Shown piece by piece: positions 20,972-23,784 of a stretch of DNA of 24,023 nucleotides. This DNA is from a virus. The stretch is taken from IMG/VR virus record IMGVR_UViG_3300032240_001380, positions 1 through 24,023 of that record. The stretch is one strand, 5' to 3'. The notes under the pieces are model-generated. The model was given only the letters and a program-made list of their open reading frames with translations, had not been told where the DNA came from and searched no databases. Each line of letters begins with the position of its first letter. Positions within the stretch are counted from its first letter, which is position 1. A program made the position numbers and the translations under genes.

Positions 20972-20979
20972 AAAAGAGC

Positions 20980-21008
20980 TTGACTTTTACTAAATAATTT
21001 GATACAAT
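20980..21008 (+). promoter_or_regulatory. sigma70 promoter of the tRNA operon leader
   Basis: TTGACT (20980-20985), 17-bp spacer, TACAAT (21003-21008). The predicted RNA start near 21015 lies just before the leader ORF ATG at 21018. Confidence 0.8.
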
Positions 21009-21017
21009 AACACTATT

Positions 21018-21140
21018 ATGAATAACTTAATACATTTATCGACAACGCTTTGTTCCATGCTCCCTGAGACATGGCAGGCCGTTTATCGCTCACCAAGAAG
21101 TGATAATAAAGGCTTTATTGGACGGGTTGGGTTTGTGTAA
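21018..21140 (+). CDS. candidate leader peptide, 40 residues, of the tRNA operon
   Basis: A 40-codon ORF (MNNLIHLSTTLCSMLPETWQ, then AVYRSPRSDNKGFIGRVGFV) whose ATG lies about 10 nt after the -10 box, without a Shine-Dalgarno site. Its stop (21138-21140) directly follows the 5' arm of a hairpin (21129-21137) that competes with the downstream terminator. Position rather than composition argues for a regulatory leader. It could also be a non-translated RNA segment. Confidence 0.45.
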   Translation: MNNLIHLSTTLCSMLPETWQAVYRSPRSDNKGFIGRVGFV

Positions 21141-21171
21141 ATAGTTTTTCTTAGTAGAAAATCACAAACCC
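21129..21171 (+). promoter_or_regulatory. antiterminator hairpin of an attenuator-like switch
   Basis: GGGTTTGTG (21129-21137) is exactly complementary to CACAAACCC (21163-21171). The 3' arm shares bases 21166-21171 with the 5' arm of the terminator at 21166-21194, so the two hairpins exclude each other. Confidence 0.6.
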
Positions 21172-21197
21172 TAGACCTAAAAAATCTAGGGTTTTTT
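21166..21197 (+). terminator. intrinsic terminator ahead of the tRNA genes
   Basis: AAACCCTAGA (21166-21175) pairs perfectly with TCTAGGGTTT (21185-21194) around a 9-nt loop, ending in six T (21192-21197). It lies between the leader ORF and the first boxA and tRNA. Confidence 0.88.
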
Positions 21198-21208
21198 GTT
21201 CTTTAAAA
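21197..21208 (+). promoter_or_regulatory. boxA antitermination site, copy 1
   Basis: TGTTCTTTAAAA matches the rRNA-leader boxA bound by NusB-S10. It is the start of a 25-nt sequence (21197-21221) repeated exactly at 21703-21727, each ahead of tRNA genes. Confidence 0.65.
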
Positions 21209-21224
21209 ATTTGAGTTGTTTTGT

Positions 21225-21298
21225 TGGCGCATGGTGTAATGGTAACACAGCGGACTTTGACTCCGCTATTTCAGGTTCGAGCCCTGATGCGCCTGCCA
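21225..21298 (+). tRNA. trnQ: tRNA-Gln(TTG)
   Basis: Anticodon loop CTTTGAC between GCGGA and TCCGC. Acceptor GGCGCA pairs with TGCGCC, leaving a T1-T72 mismatch; a weak first pair is usual for Gln tRNAs. CCA is encoded. Reads CAA (and CAG by wobble). Confidence 0.95.
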
Positions 21299-21301
21299 AA
21301 T

Positions 21302-21391
21302 GGAAGTGTGGCCGAGTCCGGTTTATGGCACTAGTCTTGAAAACTAGCGAACAGAAATGTTCCGTGAGTTCGAATCTCACCGCTTCCGCCA
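21302..21391 (+). tRNA. trnS: tRNA-Ser(TGA)
   Basis: 90 nt with a long variable arm. CTAGT/ACTAG stem, loop CTTGAAA. Acceptor GGAAGTG with CGCTTCC. CCA encoded. Confidence 0.95.
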
Positions 21392-21424
21392 TATAAAAAC
21401 ATATTAGTAGTGTGTTTCTATATG

Positions 21425-21512
21425 GGAAGATTGGCCGAGTGGTTAAGGCAGCGGTTTGCTAAACCGTCATTCAGAAATGGGTGGATCAGTTCGATTCTGA
21501 TATCTTCCGCCA
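21425..21512 (+). tRNA. trnS: tRNA-Ser(GCT)
   Basis: 88 nt with a long variable arm. Loop TTGCTAA between GCGGT and ACCGT. Acceptor GGAAGAT with ATCTTCC. CCA encoded. Together with the TGA isoacceptor it covers AGY and TCN serine codons. Confidence 0.95.
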
Positions 21513-21517
21513 AATGT

Positions 21518-21594
21518 GTGGGTGTGCAACTGAAAGGCGAGGTAACGGATTGCAAATCCGTATTATGCAGGTTCGAATCCTGTCACCCACTCCA
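21518..21594 (+). tRNA. trnC: tRNA-Cys(GCA)
   Basis: Loop TTGCAAA between ACGGA and TCCGT. Acceptor GTGGGTG with CACCCAC, discriminator T as expected for Cys. CCA encoded. Confidence 0.95.
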
Positions 21595-21620
21595 TGTTAG
21601 TAAATTGAAAACAAAAGTAG

Positions 21621-21638
21621 TGTTGCAATCTGGCAACA
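21621..21638 (+). repeat. TGTTGC...GCAACA hairpin upstream of promoter, copy 4
   Basis: TGTTGC (21621-21626), AATCTG loop, GCAACA (21633-21638), 7 nt before the -35 of the promoter at 21646. Same arms as the hairpin at 18288. Confidence 0.5.
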
Positions 21639-21645
21639 AACAGAC

Positions 21646-21673
21646 TTGACAGTTCGGCCAAAGTCTGTATAAT
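21646..21673 (+). promoter_or_regulatory. sigma70 promoter with TTGACAGTTCGGC element
   Basis: TTGACA (21646-21651), 16-bp spacer starting GTTCGGC, TATAAT (21668-21673). It transcribes boxA copy 2, tRNA-Glu and the structured RNAs. Confidence 0.88.
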
Positions 21674-21702
21674 ACGATGCATAGATTGAGAAATCAATCA
21701 AA

Positions 21703-21714
21703 TGTTCTTTAAAA
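21703..21714 (+). promoter_or_regulatory. boxA antitermination site, copy 2
   Basis: TGTTCTTTAAAA, about 24 nt downstream of the predicted RNA start of the promoter at 21646 and 19 nt before tRNA-Glu. Part of the 25-nt direct repeat with 21197-21221. Confidence 0.7.
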
Positions 21715-21732
21715 ATTTGAGTTGTTTAATAT

Positions 21733-21807
21733 GCTCGGTTCGTCTATCGGTTAGGACGCTGCCCTTTCAAGGCGGAAAGACCAGTTCGATTCTGGTACCG
21801 AGTACCA
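21733..21807 (+). tRNA. trnE: tRNA-Glu(TTC)
   Basis: Loop CTTTCAA. Acceptor GCTCGGT with ACCGAGT (G1-T72 wobble), discriminator A, CCA encoded at 21805-21807. The CCA is also the first three bases of the 20-bp helix that closes the next RNA. Confidence 0.95.
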
Positions 21808-22019
21808 TATTAAATTACATTAGGTTACCAACTCCAGTAGGTGACTTATTTGGTTGAAACACAGGCCGCTGTGAACCAGTTATAAGTTACATGAAGCAAT
21901 CCGACTGTGCTGGATTAAGTTGAATCGTAATGTGGAAGTTGTCTTATCGGCAGACGAAGCCGTGAGAAGCCAGATGAAGTTCTGGAACGACAATGACATC
22001 CTAGTGTAATTTAATATGG
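21805..22019 (+). ncRNA. structured RNA A, unrecognised
   Basis: Closed by a 20-bp helix, 21805-21824 with 22000-22019 (one G-U). Internal helices: GTGACTTAT 21841-21849 with 21882-21890; TGGTT 21851-21855 with AACCA 21874-21878; CACAG 21860-21864 with CTGTG 21869-21873 around GCCG; AATCC 21898-21902 with GGATT 21912-21916; ATGT 21930-21933 with ACAT 21996-21999; GTTGTC 21938-21943 with GACAAT 21989-21994; CGGC 21948-21951 with GCCG 21959-21962; CCAGA 21970-21974 with TCTGG 21981-21985. Most of the sequence is paired and no ORF fits. It is transcribed with tRNA-Glu. Family unknown; the position recalls T4 RNA C/D. Confidence 0.75.
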
Positions 22020-22172
22020 TATCATTGTTAAGTGTTATCAGGGTATCGTTATGGGACGCCATGACTATGCGGGCCTAACTGTGCGAGGAACAGGTCCTGA
22101 TATAACCGTTATTCGCTTGTGAGTGTTAGCTACATTGTTCACAAATTGACACGATAACACTTAACAATGATA
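22020..22172 (+). ncRNA. structured RNA B, unrecognised
   Basis: Closed by a perfect 20-bp inverted repeat, 22020-22039 with 22153-22172, whose first base directly follows the last base of RNA A. Inside: GTTAT 22048-22052 with ATAAC 22102-22106, stacked on GGGAC 22053-22057 with GTCCT 22094-22098; CTGT 22079-22082 with ACAG 22090-22093; TTGTGA 22117-22122 with TCACAA 22139-22144. It reads as a multi-branch junction on a long stem. No coding potential. tRNA-Lys begins 7 nt after it. RNase III trimming of both long stems is possible. Confidence 0.75.
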
Positions 22173-22178
22173 AAGTTT

Positions 22179-22252
22179 GGGAGTATAACTTAGTGGTAAA
22201 GTAACCGGCTTTTAACCGGTAAACCAGAGTTCAATTCTCTGTGCTCCTACCA
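22179..22252 (+). tRNA. trnK: tRNA-Lys(TTT)
   Basis: Loop CTTTTAA between ACCGG and CCGGT. Acceptor GGGAGTA with TGCTCCT (two G-U). CCA encoded. Confidence 0.93.
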
Positions 22253-22264
22253 GTTGAATACAAA

Positions 22265-22358
22265 AACGAAAATGTGCGATTCGTTCTCTGTAAAGAGTTT
22301 AACAAGGGTTTGATGTGGTAATGCCTTCTGCATCATGTAATAGGCAATTCCTTGTTAG
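22265..22358 (+). ncRNA. structured RNA C with pseudoknot-like fold, unrecognised
   Basis: In the 117-nt gap between tRNA-Lys and tRNA-Tyr. Hairpins AACGAA 22265-22270 with TTCGTT 22280-22285 and CTCT 22286-22289 with AGAG 22294-22297. Then TTAACAAGG 22299-22307 closes with CCTTGTTAG 22350-22358. Within it, TGATGT 22311-22316 pairs with GCATCA 22330-22335, while loop bases TGCC 22322-22325 can pair with GGCA 22343-22346, an H-type pseudoknot. No ORF. Confidence 0.55.
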
Positions 22359-22369
22359 CATTAAGTTTC

Positions 22370-22454
22370 GGAGAGCGAGAAGCATTGGTGACTTCAGCAG
22401 ACTGTAAATCTGTCGCCTCAGGCATACGGGGTTCGAATCCCTGGTTCTCCACCA
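22370..22454 (+). tRNA. trnY: tRNA-Tyr(GTA)
   Basis: 85 nt with a long variable arm. Loop CTGTAAA between GCAGA and TCTGT. Acceptor GGAGAGC with GTTCTCC. CCA encoded. Confidence 0.95.
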
Positions 22455-22458
22455 ATTT

Positions 22459-22533
22459 GGTCTCATAGTATAATGGTCAGTATAGCGGCTTGTCACGCCG
22501 TTGATAGGAGTTCGATTCTCCTTGGGACCGCCA
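22459..22533 (+). tRNA. trnD: tRNA-Asp(GTC)
   Basis: Loop TTGTCAC between GCGGC and GCCGT. Acceptor GGTCTCA with TGGGACC, discriminator G as expected. CCA encoded. Confidence 0.95.
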
Positions 22534-22540
22534 AGTTTAT

Positions 22541-22614
22541 AGCGGGTTAGAGTAACGGTAATTCAGGAGTCTCATAAGCTCCAGATGGGGGTTCGATTCC
22601 CTCACCCGCAACCA
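22541..22614 (+). tRNA. tRNA with CAT anticodon, initiator-like features (Met/fMet or Ile2)
   Basis: Loop CTCATAA between GGAGT and GCTCC. The T arm GGGGG/CCCTC fixes the acceptor as AGCGGGT with ACCCGCA, so position 1-72 is an A-A mismatch. The D stem GAG/TTC gives an A11-U24 pair. Both are initiator-type marks, but the three G-C pairs at the bottom of the anticodon stem are absent. Could also be lysidine-modified tRNA-Ile2. CCA encoded. Confidence 0.85.
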
Positions 22615-22620
22615 AGTTAT

Positions 22621-22696
22621 TGTCTAGTAGCTCAGTCGGTAGAGTAGCGGACTGTTAATCCGTTGGTCGTAGGTTCGAACCCTACCTAGACAGCCA
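22621..22696 (+). tRNA. trnN: tRNA-Asn(GTT)
   Basis: Loop CTGTTAA between GCGGA and TCCGT. Acceptor TGTCTAG with CTAGACA, discriminator G. CCA encoded. Confidence 0.95.
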
Positions 22697-22697
22697 T

Positions 22698-22772
22698 GGT
22701 GATGTAGCACAGCGGTAGTGCAATTGCTTCATACGCAATAGGTCGTTGGCTCGAATCCAACCATCACCACCA
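22698..22772 (+). tRNA. trnM: tRNA-Met(CAT), elongator-type
   Basis: Loop TTCATAC between ATTGC and GCAAT. Acceptor GGTGATG with CATCACC. D stem GCAC/GTGC (C11-G24, elongator type). CCA encoded. tRNA-Ile2 is the alternative reading of a CAT anticodon. Confidence 0.92.
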
Positions 22773-22778
22773 AGTTTT

Positions 22779-22852
22779 GCCCTAATAGTTAAATGGTATA
22801 ACAGTTGCCTTGTAAGCATCAATTCGGAGTTCGATTCTCTGTTGGGGCACCA
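22779..22852 (+). tRNA. trnT: tRNA-Thr(TGT)
   Basis: Loop CTTGTAA. Acceptor GCCCTAA with TTGGGGC. One mismatch (T28-T42) in the anticodon stem. CCA encoded. Confidence 0.92.
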
Positions 22853-22861
22853 TTTTTTTAT

Positions 22862-22938
<77 letters not shown>

Positions 22939-22942
22939 ATTC

Positions 22943-23017
22943 GGGGGATTGGCGTAATTGGGAACGCAGTAGCTTTGCAAGCTTCAGTCAGGAGTTCGAA
23001 TCTCCTATTCTCCACCA
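22943..23017 (+). tRNA. trnA: tRNA-Ala(TGC)
   Basis: Loop TTTGCAA. Acceptor GGGGGAT with ATTCTCC carries the G3-U70 pair that defines alanine identity, and discriminator A. CCA encoded. One mismatch in the anticodon stem. Confidence 0.94.
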
Positions 23018-23018
23018 G

Positions 23019-23051
23019 TTTAAGTTTACAATAAAGTTTTTTAAGTTTACA
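23019..23051 (+). repeat. 12-nt direct repeat between tRNA-Ala and tRNA-Arg
   Basis: TTTAAGTTTACA occurs at 23019-23030 and 23040-23051 with 9 nt between. AT-rich spacer; no promoter recognised. Confidence 0.5.
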
Positions 23052-23053
23052 GT

Positions 23054-23130
23054 CGGTCGTTAGCTCAACGGATTAGAGCACAAGGCTACGGACCTTGGGG
23101 TTGAGAGTTCGAATCTTTCACGACCGGCCA
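23054..23130 (+). tRNA. trnR: tRNA-Arg(ACG)
   Basis: Loop CTACGGA between CAAGG and CCTTG. Acceptor CGGTCGT with ACGACCG. CCA encoded. A34 should be converted to inosine by host TadA to read CGT, CGC and CGA. Confidence 0.95.
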
Positions 23131-23135
23131 AAAAT

Positions 23136-23210
23136 AGCCGTGTAGCTCAGAGGAAGAGCAATCGCTTGATAAGCGATAGGTCGACATTTCGAAATTGTCC
23201 ATGGCTACCA
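23136..23210 (+). tRNA. trnI: tRNA-Ile(GAT)
   Basis: Loop TTGATAA between ATCGC and GCGAT. Acceptor AGCCGTG with CATGGCT. CCA encoded. Confidence 0.95.
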
Positions 23211-23212
23211 AT

Positions 23213-23287
23213 ATCTCGCTAGTGTTAACGGCAGCACAATGGTCTCCAAAACCACAAGACGGGGTTCGAATCCCTGGCGGGATGCCA
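23213..23287 (+). tRNA. trnW: tRNA-Trp(CCA)
   Basis: Loop CTCCAAA. Acceptor ATCTCGC with GCGGGAT, discriminator G as expected for Trp. 3' CCA encoded. Confidence 0.95.
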
Positions 23288-23313: not shown

Positions 23314-23784
23314 ATGCGTAAGTTAAATTTAGAAGAAGTCAGACAATTTATCGAAGCACAAACACCACAAACAAAAATTTATATTGGTTGTGATTCGGAG
23401 AGAGTTAAGATAGATAAAGTATGGTACGCAGATTATATCACGGCTATTGTAGTTCACATTAATGGTAATAATGGTTGCAAGTTATTTGGTGAAGTTATCC
23501 GTGAAAGAGACTATGACCAAAAACAAAATAAACCTAGATACAGATTAATGAATGAAGTTTATAAAGTTTCGGAATTGTATTTGAAATTGGCCGATGTTTT
23601 GGTCGATAGAGTAGTGCAAGTCCATTTGGATATTAACCCAAGTGAAATGCATGGTTCTAATTGCGTTATTCAAGAAGCAATTGGATACATTCGTGGAACT
23701 TGTAATGTTATACCTCTTGTTAAACCAGAAGCGTTTGCGGCATCATATGCAGCAGACCGATTTAAAGGATTGAAAGCAGCATGA
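23314..23784 (+). CDS. RNase H-fold protein, YkuK/DUF458-like
   Basis: 156 residues from ATG 23314; the frame extends back to 23239, but that would run through tRNA-Trp. KIYIGCDSERVKIDKVWYAD (21-40) has the first catalytic-type Asp (27) of an RNase H fold. AIVVHINGNNGCKLFGEVIR is the next strand pair, and VVQVHLDINPSEMHGSNCVI carries further acids in the DUF458/YkuK arrangement. The domain is complete. A nuclease role is likely but its substrate is unknown; being embedded in the tRNA operon suggests RNA, possibly the structured RNAs or tRNA. The stop overlaps the next start (ATGA). Confidence 0.75.
   Translation: MRKLNLEEVRQFIEAQTPQTKIYIGCDSERVKIDKVWYADYITAIVVHINGNNGCKLFGEVIRERDYDQKQNKPRYRLMNEVYKVSELYLKLADVLVDRVVQVHLDINPSEMHGSNCVIQEAIGYIRGTCNVIPLVKPEAFAASYAADRFKGLKAA

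Follow-up and report, generated by a model that had tools for sequence, protein, structure and literature searches.

A putative ribosome-mediated attenuator with a leader peptide sampling every amino acid in front of phage tRNA genes

In the attenuators of amino-acid operons, one to three amino acids are sensed by repeated codons, and the genes under control encode enzymes. Under the trp-type logic, termination follows when translation is completed or absent, and read-through follows when the ribosome stalls. In T-box leaders, tRNA charging decides between antiterminator and terminator, and one uncharged tRNA is bound directly. The phage leaders described here resemble T-box leaders in that tRNA charging would decide the same choice; they differ in that the proposed reader is the ribosome, and a search against Rfam gave no T-box match for the leader under study, which does not qualify as a T-box. 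With the trp, his, leu, ilvGMEDA and thr attenuators, the general logic of which is set out in PMC1183508, they share a leader peptide, mutually exclusive antiterminator and terminator structures, and codons cognate to what the operon supplies. Unlike amino-acid attenuators, they hold nearly every amino acid, often once, control phage tRNA genes and are often leaderless.

Why phages carry sets of tRNA genes, and when these are used, is an old open question, to which the proposed switch gives a testable answer. Both PMC10264068 and PMC11555353 discuss phage tRNAs as a means against tRNA-targeting defences, and the latter reports a strong promoter of phage tRNA genes. The tRNAs of T5 and SP15, which rescue infection from tRNA-cleaving defences, resemble our case in that tRNA supply acts as counter-defence; the difference is that no attenuation is described in these two sources, which contain neither "attenuat" nor "leader" (PMC11555353) and neither "attenuat" nor "terminator" (PMC10264068). 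A search of the open-access literature, with most subscription papers and preprints outside its scope, revealed no described attenuator ahead of phage tRNA genes, no leader peptide holding all amino acids and no boxA before phage tRNAs. Such a switch would tie phage tRNAs to tRNA-cleaving immunity, would show that attenuation can sense all amino acids at once, and would give a compact natural reporter of aminoacyl-tRNA shortage.

We analyzed a stretch of 24,023 bases (virus record IMGVR_UViG_3300032240_001380), hereafter the window, and read the region 20980-21224 directly; the parts of the switch and the tRNA genes all lie on the plus strand. The region begins with promoter P1 (TTGACT-17-TACAAT with an extended -10, 20980-21008), identified by reading the sequence and by promoter search, from which transcription is predicted to start at about 21015. 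A leader ORF of 40 codons plus TAA follows (21018-21140, stop codon at 21138-21140); it contains all 20 amino acids, has its AUG 9 nt after the -10 element, and is nearly leaderless and without a Shine-Dalgarno sequence. Its last codons hold the 5' arm of an antiterminator (arm 2, 21124-21137), the perfect part of which, GGGTTTGTG (21129-21137), is exactly complementary to CACAAACCC (21163-21171) in the 3' arm (arm 3, 21163-21178). Arm 3 overlaps the 5' arm of an intrinsic terminator (21166-21197) with a perfect 10-bp stem (21166-21175/21185-21194) and a T6 run (21192-21197), of which three T lie within the stem and three beyond it. Strong structure was found in the leader RNA (z -3.4). Directly behind the terminator, a boxA-like sequence as in host rrn operons, GTTCTTTAAAAATTTG (21198-21213), begins 27 nt ahead of tRNA-Gln. 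The mutually exclusive antiterminator and terminator that define a ribosome-mediated attenuator are thus present upstream of the tRNA genes. An earlier, sequence-only reading of this DNA had described a promoter leading to a 40-codon ORF and a terminator with an exclusive arm, exact pairing of the ORF-end bases, and a 10-bp terminator stem with boxA ahead of the tRNAs. Direct reading confirmed all of this, and the antiterminator proved longer than described, with five more pairs (two of them G-U) between 21124-21128 and 21174-21178.

We consider it very probable that this element is a ribosome-mediated attenuator controlling the phage tRNA genes, its leader peptide sampling all amino acids. 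Transcription would begin at P1, with a ribosome loading at the AUG close to the 5' end and following the polymerase; translation of the ORF is inferred. With all aminoacyl-tRNAs available, the ribosome would arrive at the stop codon and cover arm 2, arm 3 would be left free to form the terminator, and the tRNA genes would remain off. If any aminoacyl-tRNA were short, the ribosome would stall upstream, arm 2 would pair with arm 3, no terminator would form, and the polymerase would continue into boxA and the tRNA genes. Possible causes of such a shortage are starvation, decay of host tRNAs, or cleavage by a defence nuclease. Stalling, termination or read-through, the function of boxA and the biological trigger are likewise inferred, there being no expression or ribosome data.

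The switching was then modeled by equilibrium folding of the window leader, which disregards that the antiterminator is made first. With a ribosome at the stop codon the terminator was predicted at 0.95, and with a stall at 25, 50 or 75% of the ORF the antiterminator was predicted at 0.98-0.99. Without a ribosome, the terminator was at 0.95 versus 0.01 for the antiterminator; in this state the early ORF is predicted to pair with the arm 2 region, so that the terminator is favoured. The folding was less clear in the twin relatives L004 and L006 without a ribosome (0.58 vs about 0.40). The expectation of the sequence-only reading that a ribosome finishing the ORF favours termination is supported by the folding at the stop codon and by the reach of the arm described below. 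Its further expectation, that poor translation or stalling gives read-through, stands in the model for stalling only, and absence of the ribosome is predicted to give termination; the predicted states of the window thus follow the trp-type logic.

We compared the window with its close relatives. L001 and the near-twin contigs L004 and L005 carry a leader 98% identical to that of the window. In the transcribed leader (21015-21196), the close relatives showed three substitutions and one deleted T, none of them in either arm, and among the window, L001 and L005 only two changes fall inside the ORF, both nonsynonymous. Between the window and L005, identity was about 98% from 20979 to about 21660, tRNA spacers included, and 59% in the upstream gene. 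Judged from these alignments, 20979-21660, from P1 to near the promoter P2 described below, is probably a recombined or exchanged operon module within genomes that have otherwise diverged. Because the near-identical block includes spacers, we rejected conservation in the window, L001, L004 and L005 as proof of constraint. The check that had been proposed, whether relatives keep both pairings, was therefore positive but of little weight by itself in the close relatives, where the arms are unchanged, and positive in diverged phages, where the arms have other sequences and are still complementary.

To find such diverged leaders, we used a scan blind to composition, which required a terminator, a complementary arm upstream of it, and an ORF with an ATG start whose end is close to that arm. 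Across all loci collected at that stage it gave 33 hits, 28 of which had 19-20 amino-acid types; one of these was an over-long ORF of 78 codons, and the rest measured 29-47 codons. The other five hits (three shadow frames, L042 and L152) had 12-15 types. Following a scan for E. coli-type boxA, L286 and L303/L312 were added by the leader scan and L369 by eye. Several boxA loci carry a diverged leader in which the arm sequences differ and complementarity is retained; arm complementarity is demanded by the scan itself and is not independent evidence there. The all-20 content was first spotted by eye before statistics were planned. A second sample, which came later, consisted of 80 loci picked by the downstream gene (alignment A3) and not by leader or boxA. 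A leader was found ahead of the tRNAs in 23 of these 80 loci by scan and in 6 more by homology, and among 23 distinct peptides from new contigs, 10 had 20 types and 13 had at least 19. The arm threshold was 8 nt in the blind scans (first loci and E. coli-type boxA) and in the terminator count, and 7 nt in the scans of annotated phage regions and the downstream-gene sample and for arm geometry.

The final leader set contained 67 occurrences of 50 distinct peptides, which blastp linkage grouped into 12 sequence families of phages. Left out of the counts were additional shadow frames of a leader, L042 and L152, which are not followed by a tRNA array, and L425, a peptide of 51 residues and 17 types that likewise has no tRNA after it. 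The L250 ORF was corrected from 78 codons with 20 types to 40 codons with 19 types, and L286 was counted from its ATG (23 residues, 17 types); by eye, it could also start at a GTG preceded by a Shine-Dalgarno-like AAGGA, and would then have 32 residues and 20 types. Sequence-pattern hits outside the known relatives were rejected as matches of 16-20 nt only. When leader relatives were sought in isolated phages, by distant blastn with the leader and by tblastn with three leader peptides, all hits were at chance level, and tblastn with the upstream gene gave none. No leader was present in the examined regions of 11 annotated phage records (DLP6, BUCT-ZZ01, X1, XacN1, MD-2021a, RaK2, Bajun, D484, Sf13, Aeh1 and Atu_ph07), although some of these regions hold only part of an array; MD-2021a looks bacterial by its gene names.

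The geometry of the leaders was examined across this set. In viral loci, an exclusive upstream arm of at least 8 nt was observed at 43 of 92 terminators ahead of a first tRNA, compared with 4 of 634 other terminators (some contigs are near-duplicates). Ten of the 50 leaders lacked a perfect arm of at least 7 nt. In all 40 perfect-arm leaders, the start of arm 2 is 8-25 nt upstream of the stop codon and its end falls at -19 to +1. Arm 2 thus lies inside the usual ribosome footprint in 40/40 leaders and would be masked by a ribosome that has arrived at the stop codon. Counted from the first base of that codon, the terminator starts 20-38 nt farther on. When the 40 leaders were folded, the stop state gave the terminator in all of them and a half-way stall gave the antiterminator in 28; the other 12, e.g. 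L253, L426, L444, L452 and the first L469 leader, showed no switch at this stall. In 12/40 leaders an amino acid is first encoded only after the arm has begun, and at least 12 nt remain before the arm in only 4/40; late codons therefore could not be sensed cleanly. A promoter with just 6-10 nt between the end of its -10 and the ATG was present in 28/50 leaders, all of which lack a Shine-Dalgarno-like motif, versus 22/637 long ORFs; such transcripts should therefore be leaderless or nearly so. For the other leaders, no promoter was found in 17/50 and it was farther away in 5/50.

We next counted the amino acids encoded by the leaders. Among the 50 distinct peptides, 30 had 20 types (29 after the L250 start correction), 9 had 19, 6 had 18 and 5 had 17 or fewer, whereas null protein windows of lengths 29-48 had means of 14.3-16.9 types. 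With one peptide taken per family, the summed types were at least 222, whereas the null averaged 190.8 (sd 5.6) and never exceeded 209 in 2,000 draws. A null based on the peptides' own composition predicted 0.81 of 50 with 20 types where 29 were observed. At 29-48 codons, all 20 types were present in 29/49 leaders and in 3/1,653 ordinary short ORFs of the same loci (mean types 19.27 and 15.33, respectively). Homologous leaders are not independent, so p-values are optimistic. Of the 47 leaders that contain Trp, 45 have a single one. One family is less complete, with 15 types in L460 and 17 in L463. The peptides can be aligned within families, the families are mutually unrelated in sequence, and pN/pS values of 0.67, 0.78 and 0.57 in three families indicate modest coding constraint. 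Sensing of translation capacity would require just such content of all or nearly all 20 amino acids; the idea that the element senses translation capacity, already put forward from the sequence alone, gained support from this content and from the same architecture in diverged phages.

To relate the leaders to the tRNAs behind them, we compared leader codons with array anticodons. The codons of 37 leaders covered a mean of 0.896 of the array anticodons, versus 0.676 for coding windows of the same loci; coverage was not clearly above chance (P > 0.1) for L277, L303, L444, one L457 leader and L463. In 24 leaders with complete arrays, 417/431 amino acids represented in the array were also in the leader, versus 33/49 of those not in the array. 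The 14 in-array residues missing from a leader compare with 24.6 (sd 2.0) under shuffled arrays, and none of 5,000 shuffles was as low. Codons cognate to the operon's supply, as in the known attenuators, are thus present. In one family, what the leader lacks is what the array lacks: Cys and Glu in L441 and L455, Ala and Tyr in L440, and Asp and Tyr in L471. In the same family, the L460 leader is without Glu, His, Arg, Val and Tyr, and its array is without these except Arg and Val. In L449, L455, L460 and L463, the missing tRNAs are largely in an upstream sub-operon. L469 has two successive leaders whose missing residues do not overlap, and the first leader represents every one of the five intervening tRNAs (Ser, Glu, Tyr, Asp and Met). 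Exceptions to the rule are L277 (no Cys in the leader although the array has Cys), L303 (Gly), L245 (Leu), L250 and L459 (Val), L444 (His) and L463 (Leu).

These comparative data, in which anatomy, recurrence in diverged phages, geometry, all-amino-acid composition and array match are each observed at the level of sequence, turn the putative switch of the window into a class of regulators. It is likely, in our judgment, that the class is widespread and that its leaders contain each amino acid of the controlled tRNAs about once, so that loss of any charged tRNA, e.g. by a tRNA-cleaving defence, would cause the whole set to be replaced. Many phages seem to turn on their tRNA genes when translation of any codon falters.

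The window contains 17 tRNA genes. tRNA-Gln, tRNA-Ser, tRNA-Ser and tRNA-Cys (21225-21594) lie directly behind the attenuator, and the other 13, Glu to Trp, occupy 21733-23287. Before tRNA-Glu stands the promoter P2 (TTGACA-16-TATAAT, 21646-21673), which matches the consensus at 12/12 positions and has its own boxA (21704-21719); the 25-nt string 21197-21221 is repeated exactly at 21703-21727. Gln, Ser, Ser and Cys are the only tRNAs dependent on the window leader alone. We compared the phage boxA with those of bacterial rrn operons. Twenty nt of the phage core (TGTTCTTTAAAAATTTGAGT) are identical to a Polynucleobacter boxA that lies, in L055, between a tRNA and the 23S gene of an rrn operon, and a 17-nt boxA core was found 138-246 nt upstream of the 16S start in three other genome contigs. 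The sequence is thus that of a host rrn boxA; the difference is that in the window it stands before phage tRNA genes, where its function is inferred. The exact 22-nt boxA string was absent from all genome contigs searched, and the 17-nt search gave at least 119 stretches, of which 80 loci were examined, so a host among Burkholderiales such as Polynucleobacter is only suggested.

The boxA-core scan of viral contigs gave 119 stretches, and 80 loci were examined for the spacing between boxA and tRNA. These contained 82 matches, 37 with a same-strand tRNA within 400 nt, most at 26-32 nt; with the E. coli-type boxA, 8/123 matches lay ahead of tRNAs. Phage tRNA operons thus often seem to use an rrn-type boxA, and we infer, without data on NusB/NusE binding or termination, that they borrow host rrn antitermination. 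In L166, L213, L239 and others, boxA lies near behind a promoter and 26-32 nt before a tRNA, with no leader directly in front.

Sites of boxA in rrn operons have a hairpin directly upstream, and so does the second boxA of the window, where a small hairpin (GATTGA-GAAA-TCAATC, 21684-21699) stands at the position of boxB, its role being inferred. The hairpin before the first boxA could likewise be the boxB-position element of an unregulated rrn-type leader, with the ORF incidental. However, this hairpin is accompanied by a T run, ORFs that cover nearly all amino acids recur there in 12 sequence families, and several phages have a promoter between terminator and boxA, which separates the hairpin from the boxA unit; we regard this explanation as very unlikely. 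The observed geometry alone would suffice for a general sensor of translation or coupling, in which any arriving ribosome causes termination and amino-acid content is not sensed, and leaderless starts may, by inference, sense ribosome state. We hold such a sensor to be quite unlikely, as it leaves both the all-20 coverage and the match between leader and array unexplained.

Alignment of the peptides within families would be expected if the ORF encoded a functional small protein and the terminator merely ended its transcript. Yet unrelated families share the amino-acid coverage, pN/pS is only 0.57-0.78, and only terminators that precede tRNA genes characteristically have the exclusive arm, which makes this reading highly improbable. 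Shared coverage and arm specificity also speak against a terminated small RNA that acts in trans, with read-through as a side effect. The promoter, strong structure and terminator would suit such an RNA, but nucleotide sequence is not conserved across families and the arrangement alone is kept, and we give it next to no credence.

Structured RNAs were also observed among the tRNA genes. One, closed by a long stem, lies after tRNA-Glu (21803-22021; predicted -74.8 kcal/mol), is also found in relatives and had no match in Rfam. Its motif GGTTACCNNNNCCNGTAGG was present in 13/488 loci and lay 15 nt after a tRNA in 11/11 records examined (Glu in nine, Ser in two), and RNAs of similar look precede tRNA sub-operons in L455 and L469. 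A second stem-closed RNA (22021-22172), ahead of tRNA-Lys, is 95.5% identical to L004 over 133 nt, with most neighbouring genes there at 66-86%; it may resemble the stable RNAs, without a known role, that the tRNA cluster of T4 encodes. Finally, a gene of PHROG 11311 (23314-23784) lies within or beside phage tRNA arrays; it is annotated as a ribonuclease or DUF458 in some records, and its product might act on tRNA.
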